This document shows positions 15,137 to 21,825 of a stretch of DNA of 64,000 nucleotides, in pieces. Source of the DNA: Burkholderiales bacterium PBB1 (GTDB taxonomy: Bacteria; Pseudomonadota; Gammaproteobacteria; Burkholderiales; Burkholderiaceae_C). The DNA is taken from contig NKIN01000001.1 in assembly GCA_002255905.1 (NCBI GenBank), forward strand, positions 1 to 64,000, read 5' to 3'. The position numbers and the translations under genes were made by a program. The notes under the pieces are model-generated. The model had not been told where the DNA came from. It worked only from the letters and a program-made list of their open reading frames with translations, and searched no databases. The first letter of the stretch is position 1; the number at the start of each line of letters is the position of its first letter.

Positions 15137-15538
15137 TCACTTGACGCTGGCCAGGTAGGCGATCAGGTCAGCGCGGGCCTTGGCATCGGGCAGCCCGTCG
15201 TACTTCATGGTGCCGCCCGGAACGGCCTTCTTGGGCGCCGTCACGTAGGCGTCGATCTGCTCCGGGGTCCAGGTGTAGCCGCTGGATTTCATGGCATCCG
15301 AATACTTGAAGTCGGCGATGGCCGCGGCCTTGCGGCCGACCACAGCGAACAGCGACGGCCCTTTCTTGTTCTTGCCTTCCTTCATGCTGTGGCACTCGGC
15401 GCATTGGCCGGCAAAGACATCCAAACCCGCCTGGGTGTCGCCAGCACCCCAGGACACCGCAGGGGCCAGCGCGAACACCGCACCAGCGATCAGGGTGCCG
15501 CGGGCGGCACGCTTCCACCGAGCACCGACAAGAGACAT
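15137..15538 (-). CDS. Periplasmic class I cytochrome c
   Basis: A 133-residue small electron carrier. The signal peptide covers about residues 1-32 (basic start, hydrophobic core, cleavage near SWGAG). The haem site is CAECH (Cys46, Cys49, His50) and the Met ligand lies in GGTMKYDG. This is the short cytochrome c552/c2 pattern. I chose the ATG at 15538; an in-frame TTG at 15556 overlaps the upstream gene end. It follows the cytochrome-porin gene by 14 bases and would be a natural periplasmic acceptor for electrons from it. Confidence 0.92.
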   Translation of the reverse strand: MSLVGARWKRAARGTLIAGAVFALAPAVSWGAGDTQAGLDVFAGQCAECHSMKEGKNKKGPSLFAVVGRKAAAIADFKYSDAMKSSGYTWTPEQIDAYVTAPKKAVPGGTMKYDGLPDAKARADLIAYLASVK

Positions 15539-15552
15539 GTCCGCCAGCCCGT

Positions 15553-16899
15553 TCAAAACGCAGTCCAGACGTAGAGGAACAGCGTGTTGTTGTCAGAGGC
15601 GCGTCGCCCCGTGCCGTCGTAGTTCTTTGAGGACCCGTTGTATTGGCCGTAGAACGTGTACTGCGCGCCCAACCTCACGTTCGCCCAGGGCGCGCCCCAG
15701 GAGGCTTCCTTGCCGAATGGCGTCCAGTTGAGTTCCATGACGCCGCCCGAGGTGTTGGGCCGTGTGCGCGTGTTGTCGGCGTACAAGGCGCTGTCGGAGT
15801 CACCACGGGTGCTGAAGTAGCCCAGTGATGCACCCCAGGTTTGCTGGTACGTGTATGACGTGTTCAGCTTGAGTTCGCTGAGGTGCCCGAACTTGTTGGT
15901 GGCCTCACCCGATCCCAGCAGTGCGCTGCGCTTCTGATGCTCGCGCAGATAGCTGCCCTGCACGGTGACGATGTGCTCGCGGGTGCCCAGGTACTGGTAC
16001 ATCGCATCGACGCCGATGTCGTTGTAGCCGTTGAACTGATTGACGTTGCGATCAGGCTGCAGGCTGCCGCTCAGACCGAACAACCCAGCCGAGTAGGCCT
16101 GCGTCTTGAGGTCCTTGAAGTAGGCCAGGCGCCAGTAGGCCGAGCCGGATTTCAAGCGACCCGGGTCTTCGGAGAGATCCAGGCCGAGCTTCTCCTGCGT
16201 GTTCCTGGGCAGGGATCGGTAAGTACCTGCTTCGGCATACCAGCTGTTGTCGTAGAACGCATAGGCCGTCAGCCCGAGCACGCGCTGCTCGACCGCGCCG
16301 TTGGCGAACGAGCCGGTCTCGGCGCCGCTGTAGCCGAACGGGGTGGTCACGTACGGAAAGCTCCAGACCGACAGCGTGTTGAACGGGTCCTGCACGCCGG
16401 GGTTGTTGTTCAGCGACAGGCCCACCACCAGATCCCGGCCACCCAACGAGGTGGCATGCGCAAGGCGCAGGTCCATCTGATCGATCGAGCTGTCGCCAGA
16501 GGTGCCGTCGTACGTGAGTTGCACGAAGGAGCCGAGGTTCTCGGTCAATCGGCCCGCCAGAAACAGCGAGATCTCGTCGACGCTGACGTTGTTGTTCCGG
16601 TTGTAGCCGTGGTCGGGCGGATCGGCGAGCTTCTTGTTGGTGTTGGTGAAAGAGGCGACAGCCATGCCTGACACCGGGACATGTCCGTCCTTGCCGTCGC
16701 TGTCGGTGTAGCCACCGATCTTGAACTTGATGCCATAAGGCGTGAGCTGCGGGCCGAACGAGCCCACGTGACAGGCTGCGCAGTCCTGCCCGGTCTGGCG
16801 CGCGTAGCTGGGCACGGCCTGGCTGGGCGACGCCCACAGCAACAGGCAGGCCAGTCCGAGCCCGGGGGACACGCGACGAAACATACTTCTCAACGACAT
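15553..16899 (-). CDS. Fused outer-membrane monohaem cytochrome-porin, Cyc2-like
   Basis: A 448-residue exported protein. The signal peptide ends near SPSQA28; the mature start VPSYARQTGQDCAACHVGSF carries one haem site (Cys40, Cys43, His44), then LTPYGIKFKIGGYT. The rest (about 70-448) has alternating polar and hydrophobic strands, no long helix, and ends in FLYVWTAF, a terminal Phe typical of outer-membrane barrels. One CxxCH at the front of a barrel of about 400 residues is the plan of Cyc2, the iron-oxidation cytochrome-porin. It could instead belong to a related cytochrome-porin family of unknown substrate. Its start overlaps the cytochrome b561 gene by 10 bases, implying coupled translation. 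Fe(II) oxidation here is inference. Confidence 0.75.
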   Translation of the reverse strand: MSLRSMFRRVSPGLGLACLLLWASPSQAVPSYARQTGQDCAACHVGSFGPQLTPYGIKFKIGGYTDSDGKDGHVPVSGMAVASFTNTNKKLADPPDHGYNRNNNVSVDEISLFLAGRLTENLGSFVQLTYDGTSGDSSIDQMDLRLAHATSLGGRDLVVGLSLNNNPGVQDPFNTLSVWSFPYVTTPFGYSGAETGSFANGAVEQRVLGLTAYAFYDNSWYAEAGTYRSLPRNTQEKLGLDLSEDPGRLKSGSAYWRLAYFKDLKTQAYSAGLFGLSGSLQPDRNVNQFNGYNDIGVDAMYQYLGTREHIVTVQGSYLREHQKRSALLGSGEATNKFGHLSELKLNTSYTYQQTWGASLGYFSTRGDSDSALYADNTRTRPNTSGGVMELNWTPFGKEASWGAPWANVRLGAQYTFYGQYNGSSKNYDGTGRRASDNNTLFLYVWTAF

Positions 16900-17531
16900 G
16901 GTTGGTCCTTCATGCACAGTTCGGTGGAGGAAAAAGCGGTGGAATTCGAGGCCGCCGTTGCCTTGGCGCGCAGGCCGGGCCACATGGCTGCAAGCACCCC
17001 ATCGCGGCGGATGTGGTGGTGCCATGCCGCGGCGGCGCCGTGCAGTGCGATCAGTGCCAGCAGGCCCCAGGCGGTCCAGGTGTGGATGAGCTCGACGGTG
17101 TCGGCCAGGTCGAGGTCGCGCTCGGTCAGCAGCGGCAGGCTTCCCAGCAGCGGCAGGTTGACGGGCTGCCCGCGCGCATTGGTCAGCAACCAACCGAGCA
17201 GCGGCAGCGACATCAGCGAGGCGTACATGAGGGCCTGAACGAACCGGGACACCCACCGCTGCCAGGGCGTCAGCGGCGTCAGTGGACGGGCCAGCGAGAG
17301 CCGGCTGCGCAAGGCCAGCCTGAGGACAGCCAGGCTGCCGATCAGCAGCCCCGCGATGCGGTGGCCTTGCAGCAGCAGAGTGCGGGCGGTCTTGTCGTCG
17401 ATCCATTCGCGAGACACCACCAGGCCGAAAACGACCAGCAGCAGCGCTGCCGTGATCCAGTGACCGATCACGATCGGCTTGGGGTGGGTGGGATGCGGAT
17501 CGAGGTCCGTCAACGACGCCGGGTGGGGCAT
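16890..17531 (-). CDS. Cytochrome b561-type membrane protein
   Basis: A 213-residue inner-membrane dihaem cytochrome b of the bacterial b561 family. Four helices are visible with candidate haem His residues in VIGHWITAALLL, LLQGHRIAGLL, and IHTWTAWGLLALIALHG. It could pass electrons between the quinone pool and periplasmic carriers. I chose the ATG at 17531, since the frame before it is unlike the family. It leads the b561, cytochrome-porin, cytochrome c run. A 17-base perfect palindrome lies 27 bases upstream. Confidence 0.85.
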   Translation of the reverse strand: MPHPASLTDLDPHPTHPKPIVIGHWITAALLLVVFGLVVSREWIDDKTARTLLLQGHRIAGLLIGSLAVLRLALRSRLSLARPLTPLTPWQRWVSRFVQALMYASLMSLPLLGWLLTNARGQPVNLPLLGSLPLLTERDLDLADTVELIHTWTAWGLLALIALHGAAAAWHHHIRRDGVLAAMWPGLRAKATAASNSTAFSSTELCMKDQPCR

Positions 17532-17558: not shown

Positions 17559-17575
17559 TGACCCTAATAGGGTCA
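17559..17575 (-). promoter_or_regulatory. Perfect 17-bp palindrome upstream of the cytochrome operon
   Basis: TGACCCTAATAGGGTCA has 8-base arms around a single central base and lies 27 bases before the b561 start, in the only non-coding gap between the kinase gene and the cytochrome genes. On the minus strand it is preceded by T, giving TTGACC within the arm, so it may overlap a -35 box and act as an operator. OmpR-type regulators usually bind direct repeats, so the binder may be another dimeric repressor. Confidence 0.6.
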
Positions 17576-17648
17576 ACCCTTCAAACGCCTGACAGCCGCA
17601 AAGCCGCAGCAACACCCTGTTCGTCGCGCACCCTGTGGGGTCGCGCGG

Positions 17649-17677: not shown

Positions 17678-19078
17678 TCAGCCGGCCGGGGGAAACTCGA
17701 CCCTGACGATGAGGCCGGTGCTCTTCTCGGCTCGGCCCAGCGTCAAGGTGGCGCCGTGCCGCTGGACCACTTCGCGCACGATCGCGAGGCCCAGCCCGGC
17801 GCCGCCGGGCCGGGCGCCGGGTGCCTGGTAGAACCGCTCCAGCACCTTGTGGTGCTCATCCATCGGGATCCCCGGGCCATCGTCCTCGACCGACAGCCAG
17901 GGTCGGCCTGCACCGGTGCAGCCGCAGCGCACGGTGACACGGCCATCCCTCGGGCTGTGTCGGATGGCGTTGTCGATCAGGTTCCCGAGCATTTCCCGCA
18001 GCATCCAGGTCGATCCCCGCACGGTGGCCGCTGCCGTCTCGAACCCCAGGTCGACGCGGGCAGCCAGCGCCGGGTCGAGCCAGGCCGAGGCGGCGTCTTC
18101 CAGCAGCTGCTGCAGGTCCAGGGATTCGAAATCCTCGACCGAGGCGGCCTGCGAGCTGGACCTGGCAAGCGCCAGCATCTGGTGCGTCATGTGGACCATG
18201 TGCTGCAGCGCCTGCTGCACCTTCAGCAGGCGCTGTCGCTGGCTTTCCGTGGCGTCCCTGAGCGCCAGCTCGATCTGAGTCTGCACACCTGCCAATGGGG
18301 TGCGCAACTGGTGCGCTGCGTTCGACAGGAAGGCCTGCTGCGATTCGACCGAGGTGCGCACATGCGTCATCAAACGGTTGATCGACCCCACCAGTGGCAG
18401 CAGCTCCTTGGGCAATGGCTCCAACGGCAGTGAGCTCAGGTCTTCCGGCGCGCGCCGGGCCACCGACTCACTGAGGCGGTTGAGCGGCGACATCGCCCGC
18501 TGGACGCCGGTGCGTACCAGCAGCAGCGCCAGCGCGATCAGCAGCAGATTCGGTGGCACGGTATCGATCAGTACCCGCTGGGCCTGCTGCGCACGACGGT
18601 GCGTGGTTTTGGCCACCACGACCGTCACCGGACCCAGCGGCGACGGGTGGGGAAACGTCACCACGCGCATCGCCTGTCCATTCACCAGTCGGTCGGCGTA
18701 CGGAGACGAATCCGCAGCACCCGCATCGGCCAGAGGCAGCAGCGATGCATCGCCACCGATCACCGCCCGCTGGCTGTCCAACACGACGAACATCAATCGA
18801 TCGGTGAGATCGGCCCGCTGCATGGCGGCCAGCGTGCGACCAAGGTGCCAGCCCAGGTCATCGTTGCGGGCATCGTCCGCATCGACATCGAGCCGGGAGG
18901 CGAGCGCGATGGCCACCAGGCGCAGGGCGAGGTCCTGTTCATCGCTGGCCCGCGTCAGGGCCTGGTCGTATTCGTAGACCGCACTGAGCACCAGGACCGC
19001 CAGCAGCGGCCACCACAGGCGCCGCAGCAGCCGCGAGCGCAGAGAGTCAGGGCGGGCGTTCATCGCAGCGGGCGGCAT
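17678..19078 (-). CDS. QseC/EnvZ-type sensor histidine kinase
   Basis: A 466-residue inner-membrane kinase. The first membrane helix is near 20-38, a periplasmic sensor of about 130 residues follows, then a second helix near 170-190 (LLLIALALLLVRTG), a HAMP-like link, a DHp domain with the phospho-His in SNAAHQLRTPLAG, and an ATPase domain (EMLGNLIDNAIRHS, EDDGPGIP, GGAGLGLAIV). The gene follows its regulator by 3 bases. The ligand is unknown. It sits between the ABC efflux genes and the cytochrome genes and could control either. Confidence 0.92.
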   Translation of the reverse strand: MPPAAMNARPDSLRSRLLRRLWWPLLAVLVLSAVYEYDQALTRASDEQDLALRLVAIALASRLDVDADDARNDDLGWHLGRTLAAMQRADLTDRLMFVVLDSQRAVIGGDASLLPLADAGAADSSPYADRLVNGQAMRVVTFPHPSPLGPVTVVVAKTTHRRAQQAQRVLIDTVPPNLLLIALALLLVRTGVQRAMSPLNRLSESVARRAPEDLSSLPLEPLPKELLPLVGSINRLMTHVRTSVESQQAFLSNAAHQLRTPLAGVQTQIELALRDATESQRQRLLKVQQALQHMVHMTHQMLALARSSSQAASVEDFESLDLQQLLEDAASAWLDPALAARVDLGFETAAATVRGSTWMLREMLGNLIDNAIRHSPRDGRVTVRCGCTGAGRPWLSVEDDGPGIPMDEHHKVLERFYQAPGARPGGAGLGLAIVREVVQRHGATLTLGRAEKSTGLIVRVEFPPAG

Positions 19079-19081
19079 CCG

Positions 19082-19744
19082 CTAGAAGTCCAGGCGGTAG
19101 CCGATGCCCCGCACCGTGCGGATCGACACCCCCGCGTCGGCCAGCTTGGCCCTCAAGCGCGACACGTAGATCTCGACCGCGTTGTCGGTGACCTCCTTGT
19201 CCCAGCGGCTGATGCTGTCGGCCAGGCGGCGCTTGGCCACCACCGAGGGCGCTGCCAGCGCCATCATCTCCAGCAGGTCCCATTCACGGGCCGTCAGCGG
19301 CAGTGCTTGCCCCGCGAGCTGGGCTTCGCGGGTGGCCGTGTCCAGTGTCAAAGGCCCCGCGGTCATCCGCGAGCTGACTGCCGACTGGCTGCGCCGAATC
19401 AGCGCCTGGATGCGCGCCAGGAGTTCGGGCACCAGGAACGGCTTGATCAGGTAGTCGTCGGCGCCGTCGTTCAGGCCCCGAACCCGGTCATCGAGGCCGT
19501 CTCGGGCCGTCAGCACCAGCACCGGCACCTTGTTGCCACTCGCCCGCAGGCGCCGGACCAGCTCGAGCCCGTCCATGCGTGGCAGGCCGACATCGATGAT
19601 CGCCAGGTCGTGCATCCGGTGGGCCAGCGCATCGAGCGCGGGTTCGGCGGCACCCAGGTGATCGAGCTCATAGCCCGCTTGCCCGAGGGCTTCGCGCAGG
19701 CCGCTGATCAGCAACTCGTCGTCCTCTACCAGAAGGATGCGCAT
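19082..19744 (-). CDS. OmpR-family response regulator
   Basis: A 220-residue regulator. The receiver domain (1-120) has MRILLVEDDELL, phospho-acceptor Asp51 in IIDVGLPRMDG, and Lys in YLIKPF; the winged-helix DNA-binding domain (about 125-218) reads LTAREWDLLEMM and IYVSRLRAKL. I chose the ATG at 19744; the frame before it has no family match. It is paired with the kinase downstream and divergent from the ABC efflux genes across a 201-base gap, which probably holds control sites for both directions. Confidence 0.93.
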   Translation of the reverse strand: MRILLVEDDELLISGLREALGQAGYELDHLGAAEPALDALAHRMHDLAIIDVGLPRMDGLELVRRLRASGNKVPVLVLTARDGLDDRVRGLNDGADDYLIKPFLVPELLARIQALIRRSQSAVSSRMTAGPLTLDTATREAQLAGQALPLTAREWDLLEMMALAAPSVVAKRRLADSISRWDKEVTDNAVEIYVSRLRAKLADAGVSIRTVRGIGYRLDF

Positions 19745-19945
19745 GGTTCTTCGGGACAGCCGCCTCGGACAGGCCTCAGATGCTAGCGGCACGGCCCGCA
19801 GCCGCTCCCGAAGGAACTTGCCGTCGGAGGTGTGCTCACACGGGGCCACTATTATCCCGGGCATGCCAACGACCGCTACCCACCTTCCGTCTCGCGCGGT
19901 GCGGCCCCGACGCCTCGATGGCATGGCCGTGTCGCGGTCGGTCCC

Positions 19946-21082
19946 ATGATCGTTCCGCTGGCACGCAAATCACTGTTGCACGACTGGCGGCGTTTTCTTC
20001 CCGCGGTGGTGGCGGTGGCGTTTTCCGGCCTGTTGTTGCTGGTGCAGTCGGCGCTGGTGCTGGGCATCTTCGGCAGCGCCGCGGTCTACATCGACTCGTC
20101 GCGCGGCGAGTTGTGGGTGGGCAACCCGAAGACGCCCACGGTGGAGCAGGGCCGCATCCTGCCGCTGGACACCGAGGTGTGGCTGCGACTCGATCCGGCG
20201 GTCAGCCGTGTCGAGGCCTACAACTGGATGGAGGCGGACTGGCGCTCGCGGGCCGATCTGGCTGCGATCACGTTGTTCGTGTCGGGCGTGAGCACCTCGG
20301 CTGACGCCCTGCTGTTTGCGCGGGTGCTGCCCCCCGCGATGCGAGCCAGGCTGGATCAACCTGATTCGGTGATCGTCGACGAGGCCGATCTCGACAAACT
20401 GGGGGTGGTCGTGGGGGATCGCCCGCGCATCAACGGGCGCACGGTGCAGGTGGTCGGCACGGTGTCGGGGCTGCGCACGCTGGGGGGTGTGCATCTGCTG
20501 ACGTCGCTGGAGACTGCGGCCAACCTGCAGCCTGCGGGCGCGGGCGACGAGCGTGTTCCGTACTACGTGGTGAGGTTGCACGAACCATCGCAACTGTCGG
20601 CAGCGCGTTCGCGCCTCGAAGCGGTCGGCCAGGCCCATGGGTTCGCGGTCTGGCCGAGCAAGGTGTTCTCCAAGAAGGCCTCTGATTACTGGCTGTTCGA
20701 TACCGGAGCAGGCCTCGGCGTGTTGTTCATGGCGATCATCGTCAGCCTGGTCGGTGCCGTCATCACCAGCCAGACGCTGATGGGTGCGGTGGCGGGTTCG
20801 GCGGCCGAGTACGCCGCGCTGCAGGCGCTGGGGATCGGTGTGCCGGCGCTGCGGGGCGTGGTGCTCGAGCAGGCCACGTGGATCGGTGGGGTCGGGCTGA
20901 TGGTGGGGGCGGTCGGCGCGTTCGCGGCGCTGCGGCTGGCCAAGCACTACCACGTGCCGGTCGCACTCGACGGCTGGGCCGCTCTGGCCTGCGTGGTGCT
21001 GGTGCTGGGCATTTCCATGATCTCGGGCTGGGCCGCCGTGCGGGCACTGCGCAGCGCTGATCCAGCGTCGTTGCTGCGATGA
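19946..21082 (+). CDS. FtsX/DevC-type ABC transporter permease
   Basis: A 378-residue permease with one helix near residues 17-40, a periplasmic domain of about 200 residues, and three C-terminal helices (LGVLFMAIIVSLVGAVI, ATWIGGVGLMVGAVG, ACVVLVLGISMISG). This is the MacB/DevC plan of mechanotransmission exporters. I chose the ATG at 19946, as MIVPLARKSLLHDWRRF is a normal family start. Stop and next start overlap as ATGA. With the ATPase and adaptor below it forms a DevBCA-like export unit, substrate unknown. Confidence 0.88.
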   Translation: MIVPLARKSLLHDWRRFLPAVVAVAFSGLLLLVQSALVLGIFGSAAVYIDSSRGELWVGNPKTPTVEQGRILPLDTEVWLRLDPAVSRVEAYNWMEADWRSRADLAAITLFVSGVSTSADALLFARVLPPAMRARLDQPDSVIVDEADLDKLGVVVGDRPRINGRTVQVVGTVSGLRTLGGVHLLTSLETAANLQPAGAGDERVPYYVVRLHEPSQLSAARSRLEAVGQAHGFAVWPSKVFSKKASDYWLFDTGAGLGVLFMAIIVSLVGAVITSQTLMGAVAGSAAEYAALQALGIGVPALRGVVLEQATWIGGVGLMVGAVGAFAALRLAKHYHVPVALDGWAALACVVLVLGISMISGWAAVRALRSADPASLLR

Positions 21083-21825
21083 ACACCATGGGCCTCTTCA
21101 AGACACCACCCGCTGCCGCGGCGGTGGCCCTGCGCGGGCGAGACCTGGTCAAGTCGTTTCGCAGTGGAAAGGTGGACACGCCGATCCTGCGTGGCCTCAG
21201 CCTCGATGTGTCTGTCGGCGAACTGACGCTCATTTCCGGTCCGTCAGGCTGCGGCAAGAGCACCTTGCTTGCACTGCTCAGCGGCCTCTCCCGCCCGGAT
21301 TCGGGCGAGGTGCTGGCGCTCGACGAGTCGCTGTGGTCGCTCGATGCGCGGGCACTGGAGCACTTTCGCCTGCGCCACACCGGCTTCGTGTTCCAGGGAT
21401 TCAACCTGTTTGGAGCGCTCGACGCTGTCGAGCAGGTGATGCTGCCGCTGGGAGCGCTCGGGTTGTCGAAGGCAGAAGCCCGCGAGCGCGCGCTGCAGGC
21501 ACTCGACGAGGTCGGTCTGGCCGCACGATCGGGCTTGCGTCCGGGAGAGATGTCGGGCGGCGAGAAGCAGCGGGTGTCGATCGCCAGGGCACTGGCCAAG
21601 CAGCCTCAGTTGCTGTTTGCCGACGAGCCGACCAGCGCGCTCGACGCCAGCAACGGGCAGATCGTGATCGACCTGCTGCACCGGCTGGCGCGCACGCACC
21701 GCGCGGCGGTGCTGTGCGTCAGCCACGATCCCCGGGTGGTCGAGCACGCCGACCGCGTACTGCACATGGAAGACGGGCGCCTGCTCGACGACACACGCCG
21801 CGCGCCGGCGCAAGGATCTGCATGA
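21079..21825 (+). CDS. MacB/LolD-type ABC transporter ATPase
   Basis: A 248-residue ATPase subunit for the preceding permease. Walker A is GPSGCGKST, the Q loop lies in FVFQGFNL, the signature is MSGGEKQRVSIARAL, Walker B LLFADEPTSALD, and the switch His is in CVSHD. The start overlaps the permease stop and the stop overlaps the adaptor start, so all three are translated as one unit. Confidence 0.94.
   Translation: MNTMGLFKTPPAAAAVALRGRDLVKSFRSGKVDTPILRGLSLDVSVGELTLISGPSGCGKSTLLALLSGLSRPDSGEVLALDESLWSLDARALEHFRLRHTGFVFQGFNLFGALDAVEQVMLPLGALGLSKAEARERALQALDEVGLAARSGLRPGEMSGGEKQRVSIARALAKQPQLLFADEPTSALDASNGQIVIDLLHRLARTHRAAVLCVSHDPRVVEHADRVLHMEDGRLLDDTRRAPAQGSA

Follow-up and report, generated by a model that had tools for sequence, protein, structure and literature searches.

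A Cyc2-type cytochrome-porin module of Burkholderiales with alternative quinone-linked partners and an adjoining two-component system: a probable switchable link between cell surface and quinone pool

Introduction

By which route do the electrons of a Cyc2-type outer-membrane cytochrome reach the quinone pool, and what is the role of Cyc2 homologues in bacteria that are not known to be iron oxidizers? Both questions of the field are raised by a gene module of Burkholderiales bacterium PBB1, found in the first 64,000 nucleotides of contig NKIN01000001.1 (assembly GCA_002255905.1; this whole stretch is referred to as the window). The module encodes an inner-membrane cytochrome b561, an outer-membrane monoheme cytochrome fused to a predicted β-barrel (the fused protein), and a small periplasmic class I cytochrome c, together with a sensor histidine kinase and a response regulator. 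An earlier note, made from the letters of the window, had proposed that the three cytochrome genes form a Cyc2-like path from the cell surface to the quinone pool. This path is supported here, and it is strengthened by an exchange of b561 for NapC-type proteins in related loci. The exchange, the two-component system and its operator go beyond that note. The gene set is probably switchable and would pass electrons between the cell surface and the membrane energy pool.

Results and Discussion

A conserved module with two alternative inner-membrane partners

The three cytochrome genes lie on the minus strand where the earlier note had placed them (Table 1). The b561 gene and the fused gene (ATG at 16899, stop at 15553) have 10 bp in common, while the cytochrome c gene has two possible starts, TTG at 15556, which overlaps the fused gene by 4 bp, and ATG at 15538, which leaves a 14-bp gap. 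A scan of genome contigs yielded 24 related loci (L002–L025); the last of them, L025, is a short piece close to the end of its contig. Eighteen of the 24 (L002–L015, L019 and L022–L024) keep the gene order of the window, b561, fused protein and then cytochrome c; one of the 18, L015, has a stop inside the cytochrome c frame. Such recurrence argues that the module is not a chance arrangement. The cytochrome c retains its single CXXCH motif in 23/23 sequences and Met111 in 22/23. The named relatives include Ideonella azotifigens, Paucibacter, Roseateles, Aquabacterium, Zoogloea, Thauera, Azoarcus and one Thiotrichaceae metagenome-assembled genome; with Ideonella, Paucibacter, Roseateles and Aquabacterium among them, the kinship of the host to the Leptothrix group, raised in the earlier note, is plausible.

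The most informative variation concerns the inner-membrane partner. In a branch of 28 loci, for which a separate careful tree was built, the fused gene is accompanied by b561 in 21 loci, by a four-heme cytochrome in four (L016, L017, L018 and L020) and by neither in two; the remaining locus (L021) is cut. The four-heme proteins (189–206 amino acids, aa) belong to the NapC/NirT family (PF03264, E-values 2.2e-64 to 2.5e-67) and score under the cut-off of the NCBIfam napC_nirT model, so they are best described as NapC/CymA-like rather than NapC proper. Their genes lie upstream of the fused gene in L016, L017 and L018, as b561 does, and downstream in L020; in L018, the cytochrome c gene is located between the four-heme gene and the fused gene. 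On the careful tree, the NapC label requires three changes, which are forced by supported branches, and L018 is a long branch whose position is open. Cytochromes b561 and NapC are unrelated types of protein with one common property, quinone chemistry at the inner membrane. The best evidence suggesting a connection of this Cyc2 branch to the quinone pool is the exchange of two unrelated quinone-linked proteins within one module. Histidines 24, 57, 150, 164 and 171 of the b561 are invariant (19/19 sequences), enough for the four ligands of two bis-histidine hemes; which four of the five would be ligands we infer from the sequences.

The pairing with b561 appears peculiar to this branch: no recognizable b561 was found near the Cyc2-type genes of the 72 tree rows outside it (best profile E-value 0.11; some flanks measure 0–1.5 kb), in agreement with the earlier view that a b561 is an unusual partner for Cyc2. 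The usual neighbor outside the branch is a diheme cytochrome (19 of the 20 loci L082–L101; 210–286 aa as open frames), not a monoheme c550. Two Cytochrom_C stretches each are present in L086, from the same set, and in L131. At L081 (4556–8804), a distant Cyc2-like gene of the FARKY type has several small cytochromes and a tetraheme gene of the NapC family downstream, so a partner of the NapC type may have been acquired at this locus as well.

The fused protein and the Cyc2 family

The sequence of the fused protein follows the Cyc2 plan that the earlier note had recognized, with a signal-type N-terminus, a single CXXCH (CAACH, residues 40–44) and a C-terminal phenylalanine. Its 448 residues exceed the 365 aa taken as the minimum for the family. 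None of the Pfam or NCBIfam models matched it at E-values up to 1. The published motif before the heme site of Cyc2 is AXPXFAR[Q/K][T/Y] (PMC8406198). The window protein reads AVPSYARQT, with one conservative departure, tyrosine for phenylalanine, so that the published PXFAR filter would drop it. Among 24 aligned sequences, the window included, 16 fit the motif exactly, one of them being L003, at 69% identity. A PXL motif is also present (PQL), five residues after the CXXCH, compared with 4 aa in print; this spacing varies from 3 to 5 residues across the wider set, in which a few rows (L015, L045) lack the proline.

Among 399 genomes of the order, 93 contained matches in a profile search for the fused protein. 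Fragments aside, these fall into three tiers: proteins of the window's kind at about 500 bits or above, a broad set of full-length matches at roughly 180–430 bits, and a tier of about 40–60 bits that matches over only the first 140 residues or so, comes mostly from two families and is presumably the Cyc2 of Gallionellaceae. The phylogenetic tree comprises 98 proteins: 68 listed matches, 21 of the 24 related loci, the window, six plasmid loci (from nine plasmid matches) and, as reference Cyc2, two proteins of genome G659; Acidithiobacillus ferrooxidans Cyc2, Cyc2PV-1 and Cyt572 are not among its rows. The window lies in a 26-row branch (support of 97 in the Shimodaira–Hasegawa-like approximate likelihood ratio test, SH-aLRT) within a 78-row clade (SH-aLRT 97) that also contains the G659 Cyc2. 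Homology to the G659 Cyc2, encoded in a rusticyanin-type operon, extends over the full length (E-value 2e-78). By this nesting and full-length homology, the fused protein is of the Cyc2 type.

One G659 cyc2 adjoins genes for COX2, COX1 and CtaA, and a rusticyanin-like gene is located about 7 kb away. The latter scores 137 bits, below the cut-off of 146.7, and all rusticyanin-like genes of this genome are under the curated cut-off; the gene next to cyc2 has no family match. The neighborhood resembles the published rus-operon layout (PMC10654088). Genome G604 was considered as an anchor of the Acidithiobacillus type and rejected: it has cox genes and a rusticyanin above the cut-off, with no match to the fused-protein family, and its rus contig starts too late to hold cyc2 in the printed gene order. 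G659 was used instead. Acidithiobacillus Cyc2 has been linked with homologues from Burkholderiales and Acidiphilium (PMC10654088), and an Acidiphilium plasmid copy sits in the same 78-row clade as the window. The rus-like context in G659, this published linkage and the plasmid copy together suggest membership of the window branch in the published Cluster 2. No cyc1, cup, cox or rus genes were recognized beside the window module in its list of open reading frames, and rusticyanin (TIGR03095) has no match in the genome. As a separate observation, an A. ferrooxidans plasmid (CP084173) and Acidiphilium plasmid pACRY03 (NC_009469) carry Cyc2-type genes with equal score and identity to the query, which suggests plasmid transfer of the gene between these records.

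An AlphaFold2 model of the fused protein, built with 24 sequences, contains 16 strands, within the range of 14–16 expected in the earlier note (mean predicted local distance difference test, pLDDT, 68.3; predicted template modeling score 0.72). That note would have given up its reading had the protein fallen outside all Cyc2 clades or the barrel prediction failed; the protein nests with rus-type-operon Cyc2 and a barrel is predicted. A Foldseek search with the model returned 232 PDB matches at E-values up to 0.001 (best 6e-10). Nearly all of the 50 listed are outer-membrane porins or barrels, along with a few titled as artificial zinc proteins, and their template modeling scores to the query are 0.36–0.48, so the fold class is clear while the detail is not. 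Searches by sequence found no related solved structure, either for the fused protein (one match, E-value 2.7) or for the family profile. A home-made strand count also gave 16 peaks; it is uncalibrated and is not used as evidence. Residues D140, R145, N165, Y213, Y221, Y255, R257 and D298 of the barrel region are conserved in 26/26 rows of the branch and in 52/52 rows of the rest of the clade, indicating that the pore is conserved and not only the heme end.

An operator in front of the module

The response regulator and kinase genes directly precede the cytochrome genes in 13 of the 24 related loci (L002, L003, L005–L014 and L024); in L004, only the kinase remains before the contig end. A promoter signature, GTCAGG-N4-TGAAGG-N11-TANNNT, is located ahead of the first module gene in 17 of the 28 branch loci. 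The operator pattern was first recognized on visual inspection of 21 upstream regions (it is missing from several of them) and was then tested by search. In 1.41 Mb comprising all fetched loci and the window, duplicates included, GTCAG-N5-TGAAGG occurs 22 times, always before the module. These occurrences represent 17 distinct loci (the window, L002–L014, L018, L024 and L120), of which L018 was outside the regions first inspected. TANNNT stands at the fixed offset in 16 of these 17 loci and at none of 19 other offsets. Such spacing between operator and −10 element fits an OmpR-type regulator acting in place of a −35 element.

Presence of the operator largely follows that of the regulatory genes. 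Operator-less loci L015, L019, L022, L023 and L118 have no adjoining kinase and regulator, and operator-less L016, L017 and L119 have two-component genes that are more distant kin. L018, a NapC-type locus, has the order regulator, kinase, operator, NapC, cytochrome c, fused gene. When up to two mismatches were allowed in 11 loci, only scattered matches appeared besides the exact L018 site; one of these, in L017, lies on the opposite strand in the interval between its regulator genes and the gene for cytochrome c. Across the 3.25-Mb genome of the window, there is a single exact copy of the operator, compared with about 0.45 predicted by base composition. When one mismatch is tolerated, there are 47 matches, 46 of which carry the mismatch, versus 12 for a reversed control pattern; weaker sites or codon usage may account for the excess.

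Control of iron-oxidation genes by a two-component system is in itself not new: the RegB/RegA system has been reported for those of A. ferrooxidans (PMC5506826). Among the 20 loci whose Cyc2 matches only at the N-terminus (L062–L081), 10 have both histidine kinase and response regulator matches in the stretch (L062, L064, L067, L069, L070, L073, L077–L079 and L081), and the link of Cyc2 to two-component systems may be wider than the window branch.

Table 1. Coordinates of the module and its promoter elements in the window
Feature	Position	Strand	Length (aa)	Basis
OmpR-type response regulator, first module gene	19082..19744	-	220	PF00072, 3.7e-26; PF00486, 9.8e-20
Sensor histidine kinase with 2CSK_N periplasmic sensor domain	17678..19078	-	466	PF08521, 1.1e-15; PF00512; PF02518
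Operator GTCAGG-N4-TGAAGG with two half-sites at a distance of 10 nt, presumed to bind the response regulator	17578..17593	-		pattern search
−10-type hexamer TAGGGT, 11 nt past the operator	17561..17566	-		offset conservation
Inner-membrane cytochrome b561, likely diheme and quinone-linked	16890..17531	-	213	PF01292, E = 7.8e-22
Outer-membrane monoheme cytochrome fused to a predicted 16-strand barrel, Cyc2 type	15553..16899	-	448	sequence, tree, model
Periplasmic class I cytochrome c, c550-like	15137..15538	-	133	PF00034, E = 1e-7; NF043008, 2e-21 (below its cut-off)

The host

The host genome contains one cbb3 oxidase (ccoN), four b561 genes and a single fused cytochrome-porin. It has no NapC-family protein (the control matched in Escherichia coli). 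The MtrB/PioB porin model TIGR03509 matched neither the host genome nor any control genome. The natural reading is a heterotroph able to use a cbb3 oxidase.

Direction of electron flow

The sequences show which genes are present and conserved, along with the operator, the exchange of b561 for NapC-type proteins and the prediction of a barrel. On this basis, we infer the binding of the regulator and the flow of electrons, including substrate and direction, as follows. The monoheme cytochrome within its 16-strand porin would take electrons from a small extracellular reductant, most likely dissolved Fe2+, and its surface heme would pass them to the dedicated periplasmic c550-like cytochrome. The latter would donate to b561, which would reduce ubiquinone, and part of the electrons could go directly to the cbb3 oxidase. 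The adjoining kinase and regulator would sense a signal and switch the operon on through the one operator that replaces the −35 element. We assign a probability of roughly 0.45 to this reading, a regulated conduit linking the outside of the cell to the quinone pool that likely carries electrons from Fe2+ inward through c550 and b561. The outer half of the path is sound, since the potential of Cyc2PV-1 is 208 mV versus about 0 ± 100 mV for Fe(III)/Fe(II) at pH 7 (PMC8406198). There are also precedents for the inner half: CybB, a b561, moves electrons from superoxide in the periplasm to quinone (PMC11869295), and for the iron oxidizer Sideroxydans it has been proposed that the quinone pool is reduced by ImoA, a CymA-like tetraheme protein that can work outward in Shewanella (PMC13390432).

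Several points weigh against inward flow from iron, the main weakness being the step at the inner membrane. Class I cytochromes c usually lie above ubiquinone in potential, and the transfer from c550 to ubiquinone would be uphill unless the potential of the cytochrome is low or the membrane potential helps. Electrons would run downhill from quinol to c550, and members of the NapC/CymA family, classically quinol dehydrogenases, mostly oxidize quinol. These properties favor an outward conduit, in which quinol would feed b561 or the NapC-type protein, then the cytochrome c and the surface heme, with Mn(III/IV), Fe(III) chelates, peroxide or humic quinones as acceptors. The ability of ImoA to stand in for CymA in outward flow in Shewanella is in line with such a scheme (PMC13390432), as is the apparently heterotrophic host, in which no RuBisCO was found (the control matched in 5 of 14 genomes; RuBisCO was the only CO2-fixation route searched). 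We nevertheless regard outward flow as rather doubtful, as the characterized relatives of Cyc2 are Fe(II) oxidases (PMC8406198) and the window protein has its barrel residues and its clade in common with Cyc2 of a rus-type operon. Other points bear on the substrate and on the completeness of the module. Cyc2 homologues in bacteria not known to oxidize iron are of unknown function (PMC5566968). No iron genes were recognized by eye in the neighborhood of the window module or in four relatives, which were not scanned with profiles. Neither b561 nor NapC is present in two branch loci, L119 and L121; there is no cytochrome c match in L121 either, and L119 has an extra gene of the cytochrome c' type. 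The sensor domain of the kinase has no conserved cluster of metal ligands: no histidine, cysteine or glutamate in it is conserved at 85% or above among 19 kinases, at least one of which may not belong to such a module.

Removal of reactive Fe(II) or superoxide from the periplasm or surface, with electrons delivered to quinone without meaningful energy gain, would give the module a protective role like that of CybB or of LcoA with BcnA. Such a role, which we consider unlikely, is compatible with the use of b561 proteins in oxidative-stress defense (PMC11869295, PMC9113575), with a two-component system whose exact operator occurs once in the genome, as would fit a stress response, and with the lack of a detected RuBisCO. 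On general grounds, superoxide removal at the inner membrane needs neither a dedicated cytochrome c nor a heme in the outer membrane, and the NapC of the same module is not known as a superoxide enzyme. A porin that merely carries a heme, as a plug or a sensor, and forms no chain with its neighbors is very improbable. The segment that holds the heme site (residues 21–59) has pLDDT values below 50, a further point against the proposed conduit, and Cyc2 has been suggested as a possible Fe(II) sensor in Sideroxydans (PMC12442390). Against a lone porin, the redox-partner genes travel with it in order, and its inner-membrane partner is swapped for another quinone-linked cytochrome.

Relation to known systems

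The closest characterized setting is that of the rus operons (Acidithiobacillus, Acidiferrobacter and Acidihalobacter type), whose Cyc2 likewise has a monoheme CXXCH after the signal peptide, a fused porin and full-length homology to the window protein. In these operons, Cyc2 is accompanied by a c4-type cytochrome, copper proteins and an aa3 oxidase (PMC10654088), whereas the window has a monoheme c550, a b561 and an adjoining two-component system. Cyc2 of neutrophiles (Cyc2PV-1, Cluster 1 in print) shares the N-terminal heme motif and the fused porin; the proteins that we take to be Gallionellaceae Cyc2 match only at the N-terminus (about 40–60 bits within the first 140 residues) and group in a clade of their own. 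The Cluster 2 cyc2 reported from three Group 2/3 genomes and one outlier of Leptothrix–Sphaerotilus (PMC13386937) is possibly the same kind of gene, judging from its description.

Quinone-linked proteins beside outer-membrane iron oxidase genes are known from the Mto systems with the tetraheme ImoA/CymA (PMC13390432, PMC12442390), the surface part of which consists of a decaheme MtoA and a separate MtoB porin, unlike the single fused monoheme protein of the window. In a nitrate-dependent iron-oxidizing member of the Gallionellaceae, the Cytbc protein encoded beside mto is a b561 fused to a diheme c (PMC5566968); the b561 described here is unfused. CybB and LcoA belong to the same b561 family, but CybB acts on superoxide directly and LcoA pairs with a lipocalin, while the window b561 shares its operon with an outer-membrane cytochrome.

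The occurrence of Cyc2 outside the known iron oxidizers has been published before (PMC5566968). No description of b561 or NapC beside cyc2 was found in the literature searched, which covers few subscription papers, and the available text of PMC12442390, PMC13390432, PMC10654088, PMC7029218 and PMC5566968 contains no pairing of NapC with Cyc2. Cyc2 is likewise absent from the matches listed in the literature on the relative genera. Somewhat more tentatively than the conduit itself, we propose that this branch of Cyc2, whose hosts are apparently heterotrophic Burkholderiales and Rhodocyclales, is served by an inducible pathway of its own that runs directly to the quinone pool, with a plug-in b561 or NapC/CymA enzyme and a dedicated two-component switch (a single exact operator in the one genome tested). 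If true, this would add another mode of wiring for Cyc2 and would allow mixotrophic uptake of electrons. The module is a compact case for both questions raised at the outset, as the partner genes lie together, the two alternative quinone-linked proteins define a slot, and the operator provides a ready reporter for the inducing signal. Possibly culturable relatives include Thauera sp. 2A1, Azoarcus sp. L1K30, Paucibacter sp. TC2R-5 and B2R-40, Roseateles caseinilyticus P7 and Ideonella azotifigens DSM 21438.

Neighboring genes

The location beside motility genes, to which the earlier note had drawn attention, proved to be a local accident: among the loci compared, FlhDC adjoins the module only in the window and in L002, which is 90% identical, and we reject a link to motility. 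A pair of genes for an ATP-binding cassette transporter of the MacB/FtsX type (19832–21825, plus strand) points away from the response regulator gene; such a pair is also found close to the module in L002 and, arranged differently, in L003. Downstream of the module in L118 is a repeat array that, by eye, resembles a CRISPR (clustered regularly interspaced short palindromic repeats) array, followed by what we take to be a Cas-like gene.

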